Shown one piece after another: positions 3,128 through 64,000 of a stretch of 64,000 nt of DNA. The position numbers were made by a program, and so were the translations under genes. Within the stretch, counting starts at the first letter, position 1. Each line of letters opens with the position of its first letter. The stretch covers positions 62,001-126,000 of the forward strand of contig JACCGJ010000305.1 in NCBI GenBank assembly GCA_013407085.1. Direction: 5' to 3'. The DNA comes from Atriophallophorus winterbourni (Eukaryota > Platyhelminthes > Trematoda > Plagiorchiida > Microphallidae). The notes beneath the pieces were generated by a model. It worked only from the letters and a program-made list of their open reading frames with translations, had not been told where the DNA came from and did not search any database.

Positions 3128-4884
3128 TTGTTGATGCGAGATTTCAATCCACCTAGTTTGACCGTTGAACCCTCCCGCGATACTTTTGCTTGGGAGCTGA
3201 ATGAACTGATAGGAAGTCACCCTTTGTACAATCACGTGACTGAACCGACACGTTTTTGTGGAAATGACACGCCTTCTCTATTTGACCTCTTACTAACGAA
3301 TGAGGAGTTGATGATTGAGGAAATCTCGAGTGAAACTCCGTTAGGCAAAAGCGACTATATAGTTTTGACTTTGTGAGCTATGTTAACTACCTCAACCATG
3401 AGGTCGCTAAGTTACGGACGGTCACTGACTACGGCATTTTCTATCACGTTGTAGCCGCCAATAGCTTCGATTTCATGTTAGAGGACGGTTCGGATTCAAC
3501 TTGGCTAAATTTTGTTACCAAGTGGCACCAGATGCTAGAGCTTTTTTCAGTCTCAGTCATGTGAAAAACCACCGGCAGGTTCATTCGGAGCAAAACTCGT
3601 AAATGGATGTGCCGCAGAAATGCCGCGTGGACTGAGCTCAAACTGACACAACTGCCAAATGATTGTGAGTGTTATAGAAAATTAGGAAATCATTGCACGG
3701 GACTGGTGCGCCAGGACAAATTTGATTATCAAAGTAAACTCACCGGTCAATTCCTGGAAAACAACAAGCTCTTGTACAAATTTATCAACAATAAACGGAA
3801 GGTTCAGACTGGTATCCTTTCACTTACCACCAGTATAGGTTCCACGACGACATCAAAGGATGCGGCAAATGTTTTAAGATTACATTACATGCCAATTTTC
3901 CAAAACCCCTCTCTAATTTTCCATATGCGTTTGACCCCATCACCCCAAACTTCTTGTATTATGTTTTCTGCGAACAAAGTTCGAGAAAAAATCATGCAAC
4001 TTTGACTCAACTCATCACCGGGTATCGACCGTATCACACCGAAATCATTGTGCGCAGTTGCCGATCAACTTTGCGAACCGCTCGCGGCATATTTCCAAAA
4101 ATTGATGGATAACTCTGAAGTCCCTAGTGGTTGGAAGGAAGGTATCATCACTCCAATTTTTAAGGGTGGAAGCCTTAGTGATCCTGCCAATTATCGTCCA
4201 GTCACCCTTCTCCCAGTGTTATCCAAGGTGATGGAAGCGATCGTTGCCGACGAAATTATGGCTTTTGTGAATAGTTCCTATTTCATCGCTGCAGAACAAC
4301 ATGGATTTTGTAAATGGCATTCTTGTACCACTAATTTGCTTTTAGCCAGAGACTACTGGCCTAAAGCTGCTGATGAAGGTCAGGGTATGGACGTCATTTA
4401 TTTGGATTTCTCTAAGGCATTTGACCGAGTTGACCATGCGATATTGCTTAACAAGTTGCAAGCACTAGGTATTCCACCCGCGTTGCTGTCATGGGTAGGT
4501 GCATTCCTACGTTCGCGAAACCTTCGGGTGCGTGTTAGACAGACCCTTTCAGAACCATTCTCAATTCAGTTTGGAATACCGGAGGGGTCCGTTCTTGGCC
4601 CGCGTCTATTTTTGATATTTATCAACGACATTGGTGGGTACGTCGAATCATCATTTCTCCTGTTCGCGGATGATATCAAGATTTGATGGTTCATCAACTC
4701 ACCCAGCGATACAAGGAAACTTCAATTCGACCTGGATTCATTACACGCATGGTCTACGATTAATCGCTTACTATTCAAAACTGACAAATGCCACGCAGTA
4801 CGCATTCGTCTTCCTGGCGACCCTGGCTATAATCTGGGTGGCAAGATGCTCGCTGTCACGATGCAAGAAAAAGATCTTGGGGTG
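3128..4884 (+). pseudogene. CR1-0 endonuclease end plus reverse transcriptase, 5' half
   Basis: CR1-type ORF2 read on plus: end of the APE endonuclease (RDFNPPSL; TRFCGNDTPSLFDLLLTNEE; KSDYIVL where SDH is usual), then RT blocks GIITPIFKGGSLSDPANYRP, YLDFSKAFDRVDHAILLNKL, GIPEGSVLGPRLF and the active site LFADDIKI near 4670. In-frame stops occur at 3374, 3562, 4003 and 4684. The frame is cut at 4884 by gypsy-1 and resumes at 13332 with QNDLDCSAQCS. The 5-bp GGGTG at 880-884 of the 4 kb block (4880-4884) is repeated at 13327-13331. The N-terminal endonuclease and ORF1 are missing. Confidence 0.9.
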
Positions 4885-7691: not shown

Positions 7692-9512
7692 ATGACAATA
7701 ACAGTACTAGAAATTCCTAACTCTATCTCTTCTATTGCTTCTACCGCCTCTTCTCCACATGTTACCATCCCCGATTCGCTCTCTCTACCTGATGTACGAC
7801 TCATGCCGTCTAGACAGCCGTCGATTGCTGCAACTCTTCTACGCCCGCGGGTTTCATTTAGGTTAGCTTCGTTTAACGTTCGGACCTTGCTACAACCGGG
7901 ACAACAGGCCGGCCTTGCACGAACGCTCGAGACGTTAGGCATTGATATCTGCTGCTTGTCGGAAACCCGTTTCCGTGACACAAGCGAAGTCTGTCAGTTG
8001 GTCTCACCAGCTGAACCAGACAGCAGATTCCACCTGCGCCTCTCTAGTGACCCATGTGCTTCCTCTGCCGGATTGGCTGGCGTCGGTATCGCGCTCAGCT
8101 CCCTTTCTGAGCAATCACTCTTAGAGTGGATTCCCGTTGACAGCAGACTGTGTGGTGCACGGTTTCGTGGCCACTGTCGGGTGAACAGGCGGTGCGAAAC
8201 GCGGAGGGATTTGTTTGTGATATCTGCCTACGCTCCAACGGACTGTAGTGCGGATCTCAGTAAGGACAACTTCTATGAGAATTTGCATAGTTTGTTTCGT
8301 AAGGCACGCAGGACAGATGTCGTAATCATGGCAGGAGATCTCAACGCTCGCGTTCGTCGCCTGTCTGAATACGAGCGCCACCTTGGAGGTCAGTATGGGC
8401 TGGATGGCGGGCGTTCAGATAACGGAGAGCGATTGCTCATATTCTGTGGCGATCACCGCCTCTGTCTCTCCAGTACGACATTTCGGCGTTCTCAGCGTCG
8501 AATGGCCACATGGCGCTCACCATCACAGCACGTCTGGTCTCAAATTGACCACATTGCTATTAGCTACAGGTGGCGTGGTAGCATCAAGGATTGCCGTTCA
8601 TACTGGACCACCAGTGTGGACTCGGACCACGCGCTAGTCTGTGCGACAGTCAACTTCCAATTTGGGGGTAAGGCACGCGCACGACGAACTCATGTAGACA
8701 CCGCCTCTTTGATGCTCCCCGCTGTCAGAACCGAGTTCCATCATGCATTGACCAGGGAGCTCGCAGAAGCACCCCCGTCTGATGTTGAGCAGCACTGGAA
8801 CTTCGTTCGGACAGCACTGTCCTACGCTACTTCTGAAAGCTGTCAACCCACCCGCGCTTTGCCACGCTCTTGGATCTCGGCCCAGTCACTTGCTTTAATC
8901 GATCACCGTCGAACTTTACCCACCGGCACTGAACACAACCGTGCCCGGAGAGAATTCAATACCCGCTTAAAGGCCAGCTTAAGGAATGACCGCAAGTTCT
9001 GGTGGACGCAACGTGCTTGTGAGATGGAGGTTGCAGCCGCTTCGGGCAATACTCGCAAATTGTTTCAGTTAATTAGAGCTACTGGTTCGAAACTGAATAC
9101 AGTGAGCGAGACTATTTGCGAAACCAACGGCTCGCCGATCACCAATCTTAGTAGACGCTTGGAACGATGGGCTGAGCACTTTAGTGCTCAGTTCAGCCAG
9201 CCACCTCCTCCGACCTCGCCGCCTGAGACACCGATTTGCACGCCTTGGCCCGTTTCCTTAGCCGCTCCTGATCTCCAGGAGGTGAGAGAGGTAATTCGAG
9301 CACTGAAGCGCTACAAGTCACCTGGTCCTGACGACCTCCACCCGATTTTGTTTAAGGAGGGAGGTGATCTTGTGGCAGCGGAGTTACGTGATTTGTTTAC
9401 CAAAGTATGGGCTGAGGAGCGGGTCCCGGCGTCATGGGGTGAATCGACGGTTATCCCAATCTTTAAGAAGGGCGCACGGAATCTGTATTCCATCATCGTG
9501 GGATATCCCTGA
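7692..9512 (+). CDS. RTE-1 endonuclease and N-terminal RT (frame broken at C-end)
   Basis: 606 codons from ATG 7692. Residues about 55-320 are an APE-type endonuclease: FNVRTLLQPG, LSETRFRD (catalytic Glu), SAYAPTDCS, IMAGDLNARV (Asp-Asn), QIDHIAIS and SDHALVC (SDH). It should nick target DNA to prime reverse transcription. Residues about 340-600 are the linker and RT fingers (KSPGPDDLHPILFKEG; WAEERVPASWGESTVIPIFK). Near 9485 the frame shifts by one base and ends in a false tail to a TGA at 9510-9512. The same protein resumes in another frame and continues to 10849. Apart from this lesion I see no stop codons. Confidence 0.9.
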   Translation: MTITVLEIPNSISSIASTASSPHVTIPDSLSLPDVRLMPSRQPSIAATLLRPRVSFRLASFNVRTLLQPGQQAGLARTLETLGIDICCLSETRFRDTSEVCQLVSPAEPDSRFHLRLSSDPCASSAGLAGVGIALSSLSEQSLLEWIPVDSRLCGARFRGHCRVNRRCETRRDLFVISAYAPTDCSADLSKDNFYENLHSLFRKARRTDVVIMAGDLNARVRRLSEYERHLGGQYGLDGGRSDNGERLLIFCGDHRLCLSSTTFRRSQRRMATWRSPSQHVWSQIDHIAISYRWRGSIKDCRSYWTTSVDSDHALVCATVNFQFGGKARARRTHVDTASLMLPAVRTEFHHALTRELAEAPPSDVEQHWNFVRTALSYATSESCQPTRALPRSWISAQSLALIDHRRTLPTGTEHNRARREFNTRLKASLRNDRKFWWTQRACEMEVAAASGNTRKLFQLIRATGSKLNTVSETICETNGSPITNLSRRLERWAEHFSAQFSQPPPPTSPPETPICTPWPVSLAAPDLQEVREVIRALKRYKSPGPDDLHPILFKEGGDLVAAELRDLFTKVWAEERVPASWGESTVIPIFKKGARNLYSIIVGYP

Positions 9513-33992: not shown

Positions 33993-34557
33993 TGTAAGGT
34001 TCAAAGTAGTTTGAAATTCTTCTTTCCCCTTCGACATTCCTTTTATTTTGAACTTAGTTACAAAACTTGAATTTTGTGAAATAGATTTTGCTTGTGTTTT
34101 ATTTGCCTACAGTATTTTGATATAAAACATTTCTTTTTGTAATTATTTTATTGGAAATCTTCTGTTCACATATTTGGTGAAGCTTTTGTTTTAATTCATT
34201 GTTGAGGCCATTGTCGGTCATTGTTGCGGAATTTGGTTGCCATTTTGGGCACTTGTATTTTGACACCACTTTTGGGTGTCTTGTCTTTGATAGACATTTT
34301 GGACGGCAATTTTGGTAACTCCTTTCATTTTATTTATATCTCAGGTCGTCATTGAACTTGTTTGCATTGATATAATTGATTCTGGAGTATTTTGGCTCCA
34401 CTGTTTGCTGTACGTTCCTATACAGTTGAGGTTTGTCTAATTATTGTTGTTGTAATTGTTGCTAATTACAGTACCGTATAACATCCGAATTGTGGTTTTG
34501 AATTTGTCGAACTAAGAAACGGGTGGAATACGCGTTACTCACGTCACAGACGTTACA
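33993..34557 (+). repeat. Element B 5' LTR
   Basis: 565 bp, TGTAAGGTTCAAAG to GACGTTACA. It differs from the 3' copy by small indels, including about 16 extra bases near 34320. The following sequence 'gtactcaactcggtgcattg' is the likely primer-binding region. Confidence 0.92.
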
Positions 34558-35161: not shown

Positions 35162-36055
35162 ATGCCTGAACATTTAGCAAGTTTAGTGCGTGGTTCGGTT
35201 AGGTCCCTAAAAGATAGTCACAATGGTGCGGACGATTTTGAATCACCATCTGTTGGTAGACATGATCTTGACTGTAGCTGTGCACCTTCTAAACGGGCAC
35301 TTGAATTGGAGCAAGATTTAGCGATTGCTAATGCTACAATCTTGAAATTAACTTATGGTACCTGTCATAAACGAGCTTCAGACCTAGCTTGTACTGTGGC
35401 CCACTCAGTGTTAGATGAGTTATTTGGAGAGGCCCGACGATTGATTGGCCAGTCAGAAGGCTTCGCTGTTCTTGCTTCGTCAATGCATAAATGTCAGGTT
35501 GCCCTCACTCTATTGGACTGCCAGGCGGTTTTGAATGCAAGTGACACTTTAGAGTATATTGTGCATATATTACCGGCTGTGTTCCAGCAACAGTGGACTG
35601 ATCTGAAGAATGCTGTATACTGCGAGGGATTAGAAATTACTTTTCAGCAACTCACAGACTTTGTGACACGTCGAGATCTTATTGATTGGAGTCGATTTGG
35701 TCAGTTGTGTAAATGTTGCCAAAAGGATTCCATAGCAAGGCATGTTAGCATCGTTGAGTGCCAAGAAACGGTTTCTATTGATGTAAATTTGATGGGTCTT
35801 GACGTTTGTGCTGTCGGTTGTTCTCGGGAAGCTGAGTTAACTGACACTAAATTAGCTCAGTCGGATTTTGTGACTGATTGTCAAGAAAGGGTTGTTATTG
35901 ATGTAAAGTTGAAGGATCTTGATGTTTGTGTTGTCGGTTGTGCTCACGAAGCTGAGTTACCTGACACTGAATTAGCTCAGTCGGATTTTGTGACTGAATT
36001 TCCCGACACTAATTCAGATACGAGTGAGAGCAAGCCTGGTACACTTATAAAGTAG
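35162..36055 (+). CDS. Element B ORF: BEL Gag-derived protein with C-terminal repeats
   Basis: 297 codons from ATG 35162, fully open. Residues about 75-170 resemble the Gag helical domain of BEL/Pao elements (KCQVALTLLDCQAVLNASDT, LEYIVHILPAVFQQQWTDL), as does 44558-44928 of element E (MQNCETALSQMNCDADLDS, LELVVYELPHELQD). The C-terminus holds two 40-residue repeats (35762-35881 and 35882-36001; IDVNLMGLDVCAVGC and IDVKLKDLDVCVVGC). There is no protease or RT. It ends SKPGTLIK-stop where the hammerhead repeat begins, so the natural C-terminus may have continued into 36526-36755. A nucleic-acid-coating role is inferred from the Gag similarity only. Confidence 0.7.
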   Translation: MPEHLASLVRGSVRSLKDSHNGADDFESPSVGRHDLDCSCAPSKRALELEQDLAIANATILKLTYGTCHKRASDLACTVAHSVLDELFGEARRLIGQSEGFAVLASSMHKCQVALTLLDCQAVLNASDTLEYIVHILPAVFQQQWTDLKNAVYCEGLEITFQQLTDFVTRRDLIDWSRFGQLCKCCQKDSIARHVSIVECQETVSIDVNLMGLDVCAVGCSREAELTDTKLAQSDFVTDCQERVVIDVKLKDLDVCVVGCAHEAELPDTELAQSDFVTEFPDTNSDTSESKPGTLIK

Positions 36056-36127
36056 CGAGTAGACGCGAACTTCAATTCAAATTGCGCCATCCGTCTACAC
36101 AAATACTAGTTCGAAACGCGTAGAGTC

Positions 36128-36188
36128 CAGCGGATACGCATAGCTGATGAGAGGCAAAAACCTCGAAACCGGTCCTGTGCTCCCGGTG
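36128..36188 (+). ncRNA. Hammerhead ribozyme, type I, copy 1
   Basis: Core CTGATGA (36144-36150), stem II GAGG/CCTC with a CAAAAA loop (36151-36164), GAAA (36165-36168), stem III ACC/GGT (palindromic, 36168-36173) and cleavage triplet GTC (36172-36174), cut expected between 36174 and 36175. Stem I pairs GCATAG (36138-36143) with CTGTGC (36175-36180), then an internal loop (ATAC/TC) and an outer helix CAGCGG (36128-36133) with CCGGTG (36183-36188), five of six pairs. The stem III palindrome without a loop suggests activity as a dimer, as in short-stem-III animal hammerheads. All invariant core bases are present. Confidence 0.85.
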
Positions 36189-36384
36189 AGATTTTAGCGT
36201 TTCGGAATGGTATTCTACTTCTAACTAGCCTGGAGTTGTAATAACCATCGCAGCAACAGGCCGTTCGATCAGTTGGGACTTAGTTTAATCCCTTCAGCTA
36301 CTTAGGAAAGTAGCGAGTAGACGAGAATTCAGTTATTAATTACGCCACCGTCTACACAAAATACTAGTCGAAACGCGAAGAAGT

Positions 36385-36447
36385 CAGCGGATACGCATAG
36401 CTGATGAGAGGCAAAAAACCTCGAAAACCGGTCCTGTGATTCCGGTG
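36385..36447 (+). ncRNA. Hammerhead ribozyme, type I, copy 2 (probably impaired)
   Basis: Core CTGATGA (36401-36407), stem II GAGG/CCTC with a CAAAAAA loop, then GAAAA instead of GAAA (one extra A at 36424-36427), ACCGGTC, expected cut 36433/36434. The inner stem I has one mismatch (GCATAG against CTGTGA); the outer helix is as in copy 1. Expected cut sites are 259 nt apart, the size of a released monomer. Confidence 0.78.
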
Positions 36448-36503
36448 AGATTTTAGCGTTTCGGAATGGTATTCTACTCTCACCTGAAACCTATTCAGCT
36501 CCA

Positions 36504-36755
36504 ATGAATAGTAAGCCTGGTTCACATGACACTGAGTCAGCCGAAAGGGGGGCGACAGATGGTAGCCATGACAATCCATATGATTGGAGTAAAGTGTTCC
36601 GTTGTGTACCTGATGTGTTATTTGTGTTTCGATCTCATGATACACTAATAATAATTTGCAAATTAGATTTGTTTGATTGGCGCGAGATGTCGCTGTTTGA
36701 GGATGAAATACACAAGGCTCGTTTGGGCGGGGTTGCATGCATAAGCTACTTGTAG
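36504..36755 (+). pseudogene. Element B downstream frame (BEL-like)
   Basis: 83 codons, MNSKPGSHDTESAERG then DWSKVFRCVPDVLFVF and LFDWREMSLFEDEIHKAR. The SKPG start repeats the end of the 35162 ORF (SKPGTL), suggesting one protein interrupted by the hammerhead repeat. No recognised domain. A stop at 36753 is followed by module S. Confidence 0.5.
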
Positions 36756-36895
36756 GGGACGGTGGCAGAACCGGAGGACGTGGTGGGTCTTATTCTGGCA
36801 AACTATTTCCCTATAAAAAAGCCACATGTGTCCAATGATGGCAATGCGACGTGGCGTGTGTGACTCGCCACTAAATAAAGTCATTTGCTGCACGG
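36755..36895 (+). repeat. Module S, copy 4 (near the 3' LTR of element B)
   Basis: 'ggaggacgtggtggg', 'ccctataaaaaagccac' and 'tgtccaatgatgg', then a 'gactcgcca' block shared with copy 1 (1745-1885, minus). The short frame PEDVVGLILANYFPIKKPH is readable here and resembles VPEDVVG of the CR1-2 copy. Confidence 0.7.
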
Positions 36896-36949: not shown

Positions 36950-37494
36950 TGTAAGGTTCAAAGTAGTTTGAAATTCTTCTTTCCCCTTCGACATTCCTTT
37001 GATTTTGAACTTAGTTACAAAACTTGAATTTTGTGAAATAGATTTTGCTTGTGTTTTATTTTCCTACAGTATTTTGATATAAACATTTCTTTTTGTAATT
37101 ATTTTATTGGAAATCTTCTGTTCACATATTTGGTGAAGCTTTTGTTTTAATTCATTGTTGAGTCCATTGTCGGTCATTGTCGCGGAATTTGGTTGCCATT
37201 TTGGGCACTTGTATTTGGCTTGTATTTTGACACCACTTTTGGGTATCTTGTCTTTGATAGACATTTTGGACGGCAATTTTGGTCGTCATTGAACTTGTTT
37301 GCATTGATATAATTGATTCTGGAGTATTTCGGCTCCACTGTTTGCTGTACGTTCCTATACAGTTGAGGTTTGTATAATTATTGTTGTTGTAATTGTTGCT
37401 AATTACAGTACCGTATAACATCCGAATTGTGGTTTTGAATTTGTCGAACTAAGAAACGGGTGGAATACGCGTTACTCACGTCACAGACGTTACA
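36950..37494 (+). repeat. Element B 3' LTR
   Basis: 545 bp matching 33993-34557. It is preceded by 'aatttggtcggagg', a short purine-rich stretch. It is followed by CTCTT, the target duplication, and then by gypsy-A gag. Confidence 0.92.
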
Positions 37495-59159: not shown

Positions 59160-59806
59160 TTTGAGTGTCAGTAAGGAAGATAAGAGTGTGTTCTCTTAGA
59201 AAAGTCCGCAATGACAGTAAAGATGCGATAAACTTTCAGAAGGATAAGACAGCGACAAATTTGTTTGAATTGTCTACAGACCCACAATCGACAATGGCTT
59301 GGCGTGAACAGTCAACATTTCATTGTGGCGATGGACCTTTGAAATGTTATGTATTTATATCCGAGCTTCGGAAGCATACTGCAAAAATGGTATACACTAC
59401 TAAATGTTTTACTACATGGCAGTGAAATCTGGAATATGCACTGGAGATAGAAGCTGAATGGTTTACATTTACGTCGCAGCTTGGATATATCGTGAACTCC
59501 GCCAAGGACGGTCCCAAGCCCGTCTGAGAAAGGAGGAGGGTTGGGCTTAGGGCTAGCAACCCTATCCCGTAAAACCTACATTGCTACGGAAACGATGACA
59601 ACAGATCCGTGGTTCGGTCATGTCTGCAGGATGGATCCCAGTTCGCATACGAAGGTAGCCATGCACTGGCATCCGCAAGGTAAACGAAAAAGGGGACGGC
59701 CCAAGGAAACTTGGCGCAGAACTTTGGAACGCGAAATACATGCACAAGGATTCACGGTGCAGACGGCAACGGAAGCAGAGCAGCGAAGACCGGAAAACCA
59801 CTAGCG
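59160..59806 (+). pseudogene. RTE-like C-terminal fragment
   Basis: Plus strand in several frames: a VLLHGSEIWNMHWR block near 59400 (RT C-terminus), a conserved non-coding-looking stretch with 'ggaggagggttgggcttagg', and WFGHVCRMDPSSHTKVAMHW, KRKRGRPKETWRRTLEREIH and QTATEAEQRRP to 59800. It is a third RTE-like lineage, distinct from RTE-1 and RTE-2. It runs into the assembly gap. Confidence 0.8.
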
Positions 59807-62086: not shown

Positions 62087-62136
62087 GTTTGGTCTGACGA
62101 AGCTTCTGTGTCAGAAGTGAAACGTTACCCAAAACC
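62087..62136 (+). ncRNA. Hammerhead ribozyme, Penelope-associated, plus copy
   Basis: CTGACGA (62094-62100), stem II CTTCTG/CAGAAG with a TGT loop (62103-62117) plus a bulged G, GAAAC (62119-62123), stem III AC/GT and cleavage triplet GTT (62124-62126), cut expected after 62126. Stem I TTTGGT (62088-62093) pairs with ACC and AAA (62127-62133) around a bulged C. Very short stem III is usual for hammerheads reported in Penelope-like elements. Confidence 0.78.
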
Positions 62137-62413
62137 TGCTCTAACCGATTGCACTCAAATTCCTCTGCTATACTTAAGCCACGTTATTTGGCGCCAACTA
62201 TTCACAATAACACATCAACCAACCCCGGCTGTATCGATTTTCTTAACGCTTTGGCTGTACTTTTGGTTGACCCTGCTAAAATGAAACAATCTAATCGATT
62301 GGAATATGTTTGGGACCGATCGTGTATTCATAATGCAAAGGAATTTGTGTGCAATCGGTTAGAGTAGTTTTTGGGTAACGTTTCACTTCTGACACAGAAG
62401 CTTCGTCAGACCA
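62091..62413. repeat. Inverted repeat carrying the two hammerheads
   Basis: Arms 62091-62163 and 62340-62413 are about 90% reverse-complementary ('taaccgattgcac.caaatt' beyond the hammerhead). The segment 'aatcgattggaata.gtttgg' occurs directly at 62072-62092 and 62293-62312. This looks like two opposed Penelope-like termini with a 175-bp spacer. Confidence 0.75.
62369..62413 (-). ncRNA. Hammerhead ribozyme, Penelope-associated, minus copy
   Basis: Reverse complement of the plus copy: CTGACGA (62409-62403), the same stem II, GAAAC (62384-62380), ACGTT then ACCCAAAAA. It lies about 300 bp downstream of the Penelope-like stop codon on the same strand, so it belongs to the 3' region of that element. 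The core is intact. Confidence 0.78.
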
Positions 62414-62717
62414 AGGGTGATAGTCAGGACAGGGAACATGATTAAGTAGCAGTCAACCACCACTTATTTGACCTTACCGCTAAACAGCCTATAGTACGAC
62501 TACAGTGTGTCACGTCTCGTGGGAATGACCAGGATCAGTGGCCGATTTTCCACACAGTGTGTATCCACGTCTATCTGATACAAGTGAACACGGTCAAGGT
62601 CAGTTGACACAGCGGCCCACATACGTAAAAGTACATAACTAACGGGGCTAAGGTTAGGCTGTTTGAAGAAAAACAAAAATCTAATTAACTAGTAGGTATA
62701 AGGTGAATAAAAATTAT
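62414..62717 (-). other. Penelope-like element 3' UTR
   Basis: Non-coding stretch between the stop codon (62718) and the minus-strand hammerhead; no other repeat recognised. Confidence 0.5.
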
Positions 62718-63999
62718 TTACTTTCGCATCAGTGCTGAGCGCCAGATTGTGGAGATTTCTGCCCCATCCACCTTATTGACCGCCAGTCGACCTGCCTTGG
62801 CAATTTCGACCGCCTCCGCATGTAGGCGTTCGCTATACGGTTTAATACCGCGTCTCAATATTGCCACATTGTCTAGATCGACGCTGTGGCCCGTATCTAA
62901 AACGTGCTCCGCCAAGGCGGAATCACGAATAAGGGATTGATATTCCCTCGCATCCCGGGGCTGTCTCCGGACACGCTTTCGGTGTTCTTCGATTCTAGTG
63001 TGAATTTCCCTGGAAGTCTGCCCTATGTAAACACCCGAACAGTCCTTACAGTTGATTCTGTAGATGCTGTTCGTAACGCTAGATAAAGGCGTCTTATCCT
63101 TGAGGTGCATCAGAACCGAACGGATAGTTTTCCCTTTCTTATAAGTTACGCGTATGGCCGCCTGGTTCAAGATTCTACGTATCGCTTCAGAAGTGCATTT
63201 TACATAAGGTATACAGACTGTATCTCGCCAATTTTTCTCCGATTTTTCGGATGGGTATTTTACCTTCATCAATTGGCGTTTTACAAAACTTTTTGGGTAA
63301 CCGTGGTCTATGAGCCTTTGGCTAGCTTCACGGTGCGCCTGTTTTCGCTCCCTTTCGTCGCTGCACAAGTGTTCTATCTTGTGGAAAATGGAACAAGCTA
63401 TGGAACTGAAGACCTGTCTTGGATGAGCGGAAGTGTATCGTAGTACAGCATCTGTATCGATAGGTTTCCGATAGACAGAAGTTTTTATTTTTCCGTCTAC
63501 TTTTTGTGCTAAACAGTCTAAAAATGGAAGAGTGCCTGTGCAGGATTCCACTTCCTTTGTGACAGTAATACATGGGTCTATTTCATTTAAATATTTAAAG
63601 AAGGCCTCTAACTGATCTCGCTTGATGATAACAAATGTGTCATCAACATAGCGCCACCATAATTTTGGCTTGAACCCTTCATTGTTAAGGGCTTTGTTCT
63701 CGAAATGCTCCATATACATGTTCGCAAGTACTGGAGATATCGGTGAACCCATTGCCAACCCTTCTTTTTGTCTATATAATTGCTCATTAAATACGAAGTG
63801 GTTCATGCTTAGGCAGATCGATACACCGTTGATAATTTGCTGGACGCTCAAGTTTGTGCGATCTGACAAACTGGCATCAGATTCCAAGGCCCGTCTAGCT
63901 AGTTGTAACGCACTTGTTGTATCGACGTTGGTGAACAAAGCGCTCACATCAAAACTAACCATTATTTCATCGTTATCTATTGTTACCGACTTTAAGCGT
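62718..63999 (-). CDS. Penelope-like element RT and GIY-YIG endonuclease (5' end outside window)
   Basis: The minus frame is open from the window edge (63999) to TAG at 62718; the ATG at 63962 is internal, because homology continues upstream (DNDEIMVSFDVSALFTNV). RT: LYRQKEGLAMGSPISPVLAN, YMEHFENKAL and the active site WWRYVDDTFVII, then LPFLDCLAQKVDGKIKTSVY with YRKP, typical of Penelope RT. C-terminal GIY-YIG endonuclease: SIYRINCKDCSGVYIGQTSR, IHTRIEEHRKRV, DSALAEHVLDTGHSVD and the closing glutamate region RLHAEAVEIAKAG. No stops, so this copy may be young. Telomerase-like RT with GIY-YIG defines Penelope-like elements. Confidence 0.95.
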   Translation of the reverse strand, partial: RLKSVTIDNDEIMVSFDVSALFTNVDTTSALQLARRALESDASLSDRTNLSVQQIINGVSICLSMNHFVFNEQLYRQKEGLAMGSPISPVLANMYMEHFENKALNNEGFKPKLWWRYVDDTFVIIKRDQLEAFFKYLNEIDPCITVTKEVESCTGTLPFLDCLAQKVDGKIKTSVYRKPIDTDAVLRYTSAHPRQVFSSIACSIFHKIEHLCSDERERKQAHREASQRLIDHGYPKSFVKRQLMKVKYPSEKSEKNWRDTVCIPYVKCTSEAIRRILNQAAIRVTYKKGKTIRSVLMHLKDKTPLSSVTNSIYRINCKDCSGVYIGQTSREIHTRIEEHRKRVRRQPRDAREYQSLIRDSALAEHVLDTGHSVDLDNVAILRRGIKPYSERLHAEAVEIAKAGRLAVNKVDGAEISTIWRSALMRK

Positions 64000-64000
64000 G

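Follow-up and report, generated by a model that had tools for sequence, protein, structure and literature searches.

The hammerhead ribozyme block of the window (the whole stretch of Atriophallophorus winterbourni DNA analysed here, 64,000 nucleotides of contig JACCGJ010000305.1) is probably a 5'-truncated retrozyme insertion into a BEL-like LTR element, and the arrays of the same repeat elsewhere in the genome would have been spread by a Penelope-like reverse transcriptase/endonuclease. The evidence comprises two hammerhead motifs, a genome-wide repeat family, an empty site in a relative of the host element, clustered insertion ends, inverted arrays, target duplications and arrays of mosaic composition. 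We infer the enzyme from the anatomy of the insertions; transcription, self-cleavage and the nature of the template are inferences too. Comparisons with known systems refer to excerpts of PMC7229834, PMC7761336, PMC11167929 and PMC8490949.

The insert and its host element have the following parts:
36040-36479, forward strand: 5'-truncated insert of retrozyme type with about 1.7 copies of a 257-bp unit, in sense orientation to the host open reading frame (ORF), without target duplication
36470-36479, forward strand: 3' end of the insert, a class 1 site, common to 20 of 33 visible ends
35162-36055, forward strand: host gag-like ORF, interrupted by the insert
36480-36889, forward strand: the host element resumes, with 84% identity to locus L016
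about 33993-34557, forward strand: host 5' LTR
about 36950-37494, forward strand: host 3' LTR

The limits of the insert were set by L016, a relative of the host element in which the sequence passes directly from the equivalent of position 36039 to that of 36480. Identity to the host element is 89 and 84% on the two sides of this empty site. Because L016 runs through uninterrupted, the insert was placed at 36040-36479 without a duplication, which replaces the bounds of the original prediction (36045-36509). The 16-bp target duplication proposed at the same time was set aside, as both copies have counterparts in L016, where there is no insert, and are parts of an older, diverged repeat. The more general proposal, that a retrozyme-like hammerhead repeat was inserted in an LTR element, was borne out by the two LTRs and the empty site. 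Counted from the predicted cleavage site, the insert begins at phase 126 and ends at phase 47.

The host looks like a BEL-like LTR element with a gag-like ORF only, and the block like an ordinary insertion into it. Its derivation from BEL, part of the earlier proposal, is plausible rather than proven. The gag-like ORF resembles a DUF1759-bearing ORF of the window (27% over 112 amino acids, E 1e-7 in a single comparison) and an ORF in L016 (46% over 46 amino acids), but it has no Pfam match, and no homologue was found at E 0.001 among 788 candidates in the proteins searched. The sole Pfam match of the L016 ORF is a sub-threshold aspartyl protease (E 0.016). The host LTRs differ by 7 substitutions at 534 aligned sites, with 43 gap columns, and those of the outer element at 16 of 372 sites. 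A 120-bp tandem duplication lies within the gag-like ORF (window 35755-35997). Among the papers listed for hammerheads together with BEL or Pao (12 of 87), none contains the term 'hammerhead ribozyme'.

The ribozyme features of the block are:
36126-36197, forward strand: type I hammerhead motif 1, predicted to cleave after 36174, with an Rfam match and a fold z of -4.57
36383-36456, forward strand: hammerhead motif 2, with one additional A ahead of ACCGGTC and another in loop II; if active, it is predicted to cleave after 36433
36168-36173, forward strand: stem III ACCGGT, self-complementary and without room for a loop

Two hammerhead cores in tandem were confirmed. CTGATGA, a GAGG/CCTC stem II, GAAA, ACCGGTC and a two-part stem I are all present, as had been described for tandem type I units; the block holds about 1.7 units of 257 bp rather than two full ones. 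Stem I is the open stem of these hammerheads, which makes them type I, whereas plant LTR retrozymes have type III. Both motifs were matched best by the Rfam covariance model Hammerhead_HH9, motif 1 at 42.1 bits (E 3.7e-9 in a 1-kb search and 2.4e-7 in the whole window) and motif 2 at 26.6 bits (E 0.022 in the whole-window search), in each case under the curated cut-off of 52 bits. Scans at gathering level returned no hammerhead in the window and none in eight array loci, so the repeat family falls under the Rfam cut-off there too. Motif 1 has what we take to be the complete set of core letters required of a hammerhead. Motif 2 may be impaired, because an additional A separates GAAA from ACCGGTC and a further one lies in loop II.

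The 100-nt stretch holding motif 1 folds with a z of -4.57. Covariation was tested on a hand-written structure with nine sequences from four hammerhead families of the genome, namely the repeat family and three others found near the arrays. In this alignment 91.4% of cells were paired, and stems I-III had two-sided changes at 8 of 12 pairs, compared with 3.1 in shuffles, none of which (0 of 500) was as high; stem III itself had two-sided changes at one of three pairs. A chance origin of the hammerheads was ruled out by the fold z, the covariation relative to shuffles and the whole-window Rfam E values. In a monomer, the stem III sequence ACCGGT is predicted to form one base pair closed by a CCGG tetraloop, and in two motifs together a 6-bp helix. 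Since ACCGGU in the RNA is palindromic and loopless, two motifs probably act together; dimeric constructs cleaved better in the work described in PMC7229834.

The block belongs to a large repeat family, with copies in other genomic contexts. A nucleotide search of the contigs (537 Mb, 15,840 contigs) with the block as query gave at least 407 matches, many overlapping within arrays; this number is a lower bound, and about 150 matches were listed. Twenty array regions were retrieved, then seven more. Reading of the first 20 array regions, of three earlier loci and of the window gave 297 cores, of which 237 had CTGATGA..GAAACCGGTC. The unit is 257 bp long in 168 of 264 units and 255-260 bp in 247 of 264, its GC content is 0.475-0.490, and about ten linked differing sites define two subfamilies. 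The arrays reach 25 units or more and are made up of units only, without LTRs. The longest open stretch in a unit is 68 codons, and an ORF with reverse transcriptase and GIY-YIG is absent from the unit, which is not a member of the Penelope-like elements. An exact degenerate hammerhead pattern had no match in viral contigs. The repeat is classed as a metazoan non-LTR retrozyme-type element, non-autonomous and non-coding, which is a known kind.

In excerpts of PMC7229834, the metazoan non-LTR retrozymes share with the repeat a type I hammerhead, tandem units of a few hundred bp, variable multimer length, target duplications of more than 4 bp when present (8-14 bp here) and Penelope-like elements in the same genome. 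The unit length lies within their range of about 150-450 bp; the GC content is under the 50% limit given in the text of that article and above the 45% limit of its figure legend. The repeat differs from these elements, as there described, in that its 3' ends lie at two preferred internal sites, some of its arrays are head-to-head and the units within arrays are mosaic. Axolotl Amex1, a newt/axolotl satellite hammerhead (PMC7229834), has the same single-pair helix III and palindromic tetraloop, a likeness by description, with a unit of about 330 bp compared with 257 bp here. The schistosome Smalpha/Sjalpha repeats and W-elements (PMC8490949) are likewise comparable by description as trematode repeats with hammerheads, and a possible target duplication is reported for one W-element. 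Plant LTR retrozymes (PMC7229834, PMC7761336) also carry hammerheads in a non-autonomous retroelement, but have type III hammerheads, LTRs, a primer site and 4-bp duplications.

Other ribozyme-like sequences were seen in the window and in array loci. The window may hold a second kind of self-cleaving ribozyme, a type-P1 twister match at 59490-59544 on the forward strand (43.3 bits, cut-off 67.2; E 3.2e-6 in the window and 2.8e-8 locally). L020 carries a different hammerhead satellite (1263-1762 and 8727-8878, reverse strand), whose unit is about 200 bp long; two copies have ACCGGTC and a diverged third has ACCAGTC. A third hammerhead family, dispersed and partly decayed, has CTGATGA with a GTGC/GCAC stem II; copies were found on the reverse strand of L015 (about 829), L020 (about 8562) and L029 (3145-3186), with weaker ones near other arrays, and the array of L035 seems by eye to adjoin one. 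L029 also has a hammerhead-like HH9 match of 31 bits (4463-4516, forward strand) with a different stem II and stem III.

Twenty-eight arrays were re-measured against two subfamily units with phase zero at the predicted cleavage site. They represent 26 distinct insertions including the window, since the flanks of L033 and L036, compared by eye, mark these two as repeats of the L010 and L028 sites, and they were left out. Loci L001-L008 are outside the end table, and ends cut by a locus or contig end were excluded. The 3' ends fall into two classes: 20 of 33 lie at phases 44-55 of the 257-nt unit and 11 of 33 at phases 161-173, and the remaining two both come from L018. None of the 12 5' ends of single-orientation arrays fell within the test windows used for the 3' ends; these windows were chosen after the data were seen, and the P of 1e-24 is nominal. 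The window copy, with its 3' end at phase 47, belongs to the larger class. The 12 5' ends themselves form loose groups at phases 119-129 (four) and 230-241 (four), perhaps at stable hairpins, in numbers too small for a test.

Inverted arrays were always head-to-head (9 of 26 distinct insertions) and never tail-to-tail (0 of 26). Both outer ends were visible in seven inverted arrays; six of these had one end in each class, and L018 had neither, with a 3' end at phase 253 and an inner 5' end at phase 1. Apart from L018, no counted end was within 5 nt of the cleavage site, and therefore the end of a cut monomer is not the usual starting point of synthesis. Of the 18 testable insertions outside the window, eight have exact 8-14 bp duplications within a few bases of their ends (7 of 15 in the first set, plus 1 of 3 in the second after L036 was dropped), compared with 1 of 240 mismatched control pairs. 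The other ten testable insertions and the window copy had no target duplication of 8 bp or more. GC content was 31% for the eight cases with duplications and 44% for the window.

The preferred 3' ends, taken with the scattered 5' ends and the target duplications, indicate target-primed reverse transcription. That inverted copies have two preferred outer ends indicates internal priming on both strands of the target. Tandem copies of the repeat would be transcribed, and the type I hammerheads would cut the RNA, probably with two motifs acting jointly. A Penelope-like reverse transcriptase/endonuclease would bind this RNA and nick the target, and cDNA synthesis would begin inside the unit, at one or other of the two preferred sites, and in many cases on both strands of the target. 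Such a process would yield arrays that are truncated at the 5' end, arrays joined head to head, and short target duplications.

Internal starts and priming of both strands, as read from the end anatomy, match the behaviour of a Penelope-like protein described in PMC11167929. There, the protein, from a lizard (anole), extends both strands of the target and begins synthesis at two sites inside the RNA, genomic copies have a 'tail' that is the stretch between the two start sites, and hammerhead mutants left in vitro insertion unchanged. The two start sites of the lizard element are adjacent and the same for both strands, whereas the preferred sites of the repeat are about 115 nt apart, usually with one at each array end. 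The Penelope-like elements with minimal hammerheads in that article share internal start sites, priming of both strands and tandem organisation with the repeat, which differs from them in having no long protein ORF and a hammerhead with full stems I and II. Penelope-like elements are also named as strong or likely candidates for moving animal retrozymes in two articles of 2020, PMC7229834 and PMC7761336, on the basis of co-occurrence and shared hammerheads.

A candidate helper is present in the window itself:
62274-64000, reverse strand, continuing beyond the window to about 64571: Penelope-like element with a reverse transcriptase match and a GIY-YIG part read by hand
62369-62416, reverse strand: minimal hammerhead-like motif of the Penelope-like element, read by hand
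62089-62134, forward strand: second copy of the Penelope hammerhead-like motif, in opposite orientation

The reverse transcriptase match scored 29.5 bits, just under the Pfam cut-off of 29.6. The best-scoring named matches of the protein are from Dicrocoelium dendriticum and Clonorchis sinensis, and PF01541 (GIY-YIG) is recorded for some of its relatives. The Rfam search of the window had no match at the hammerhead-like motif at 62369-62416. The Penelope-like copies of the window and L024 stop at the same point (about 62274-62294). In L037, a second element on the contig of L024, this point is near the 5' end, close to the start of the open frame and some 116 nt away from where a hammerhead-like core begins (a hand count on two copies). 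The shared stop point near the L037 core therefore suggests an internal start downstream of the hammerhead for the retrozyme and the Penelope-like element alike. The retrozyme unit and the Penelope region have no clear common sequence, motifs included. The two Penelope motif copies of the window (62089, forward, and 62416, reverse) face each other at the 3' end of the element, unlike the head-to-head arrays, which argues against the parallel. The lack of clear common sequence, the different spacing and strand use of the start sites, the unchanged in vitro insertion with hammerhead mutants, the absence of a duplication at the window insert and at 10 of the 18 testable insertions, the departure of L018 from the end rule and a LINE-type ORF that also lies within the window argue against the Penelope reading as well. 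Taken as a whole, the anatomy suggests, and does not prove, that a Penelope-like element spreads the repeats.

The movement of the RNA by LINE machinery with ordinary twin priming is an unlikely account. Target duplications and 5'-inverted insertions are LINE-like, and the window has a LINE-type ORF. Twin priming by a LINE typically leaves one fixed and one arbitrary outer end, but six of the seven inverted arrays have their two ends in the two preferred classes. The 3' junctions examined were also without a consistent poly(A) or simple-repeat tail, the nearest approach being a TTTG run after the duplication in the L012 flank.

The composition of the arrays bears on the template. The mean distance between units was 0.058 within arrays compared with 0.066 between arrays, and both subfamilies occurred together in 9 of 20 arrays with at least four units. 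(L002, L003 and L005 were kept in the unit-length, distance, nearest-relative and linkage tables and dropped from the subfamily-mixture count; L003 shares a contig with L036.) The nearest relative of a unit was in its own array for 17 of 254 units, about four times the level with shuffled labels (4.3 +/- 2.6), and for 19 of 226 units when three loci were dropped. Thus, there is some affinity within arrays, but little. L012 and L022 are fairly homogeneous, and 15 of the 23 identical within-array pairs come from L012. Weak colinearity was detected between arrays, in that the unit following a best match was near-identical in 8.7% of cases compared with 1.7% in controls. By these comparisons the arrays appear to be mosaic for the most part, which is not what copying of a single RNA circle would give.

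That difference matters for the published model of animal retrozymes, in which one monomeric RNA circle is copied repeatedly into an array of identical units that is then integrated (the circle copied into a multimer is given in a figure legend of PMC7761336). The 257-nt period of the arrays, the circles reported for related elements (PMC7229834), the identical pairs of L012 and the excess of own-array relatives over the shuffled level all agree with it. Units of one array should, however, then be nearly identical at birth, and the small number of own-array nearest relatives, the closeness of the within- and between-array distances and the mixture of subfamilies in the larger arrays make this model improbable here. 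Exchange between loci after insertion, or assembly error, could have mixed units that were alike at birth, which leaves circles some probability.

Linkage between subfamily sites changes at the cleavage site. Sites 93 and 204 were linked with r of 0.83 inside the monomer (111 nt) and 0.57 across the cleavage site (146 nt), after which linkage was 0.53 at 403 nt and fell slowly to 0.34 at 1945 nt. Other subfamily site pairs behaved similarly; in an earlier test with more sites, the contrast was less marked at sites 195 and 213. The drop would fit the joining of cut monomers; homologous exchange would also concentrate in the interval that crosses the cleavage site, which has about 130 nt without common subfamily differences. 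Since the arrays are mosaic and linkage drops across the cleavage site, an extension of the Penelope reading was considered, in which the reverse transcriptase primes both target strands at two internal sites and jumps end to end between ribozyme-cut monomers. Self-cleavage would then make the templates, and each array would be a draw from a pool of RNAs. We offer this extension tentatively and regard it as rather unlikely, because array ends and starts are not at the cleavage site (except in L018) and recombination in the crossing interval is an alternative.

The original prediction also allowed that a BEL-like element had captured the hammerhead block, which may ride on its transcripts. Capture as a working part that spread with the element is very unlikely. 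The block is in sense orientation to the host, and 27 of its 437 positions carry letters that are rare in other units (22 of them in the middle unit), compared with a median fraction of 1.2% in other units. The full unit of the block differs by 7.1% from the closest of the other units (rank 254 of 264). Under a stricter definition, by which a letter is private if no more than two other units have it, the count is 7 in 257 (rank 229 of 264), within the range of other units. Together with the few differences between the host LTRs, the rare letters would fit a block that travelled with its host. They may mean either that the block was in the host lineage before the present copy or that it came from an unsampled divergent subfamily, and the latter is favored for part of them because their spread is uneven. 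Against capture, the one available relative of the host, L016, has an empty site, and among the matches listed (about 150 of at least 407) only the window itself reaches the end of the query, with 30 bases of 3' flank. The junction is a usual retrozyme 3' end, motif 2 is altered, and cutting of the full-length RNA should harm an LTR element.

A second array does abut a fragment of a like element in L016, which speaks for capture. This array, of 3.3 units, begins at most about 16 bases from the point where the host sequence stops (the equivalent of 36889). The segments concerned are L016 3880-4735 and 4750-5285 on the reverse strand, and the array starts where the BEL-like fragment ends, directly after an AATAAA-like signal. 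Array and fragment are possibly a joint cDNA of two RNAs (a copy-choice join) or the result of an insertion; the best duplication around the two is 9 bases, which is about chance level.

Classical satellite DNA grown by unequal crossing-over, with the window copy as a stray fragment, would account for arrays that reach 25 units or more, their mosaic composition and the slow fall of linkage beyond one unit, but is highly improbable given the clustered 3' ends, scattered 5' ends, exclusively head-to-head inversions and target duplications.

The end pattern of the window copy's relatives is the part of the finding worth following, and the BEL link looks like an ordinary insertion. No description of such an end pattern, of head-to-head arrays or of unit mosaicism in animal retrozymes was found in the literature searched, which includes few subscription papers. 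The mosaic arrays speak against a simple rolling-circle picture of these elements. The insertion ends bear the signature of a mechanism and lend themselves to comparison with in vitro data on Penelope-like proteins, which makes the question of what moves animal retrozymes testable in public assemblies.
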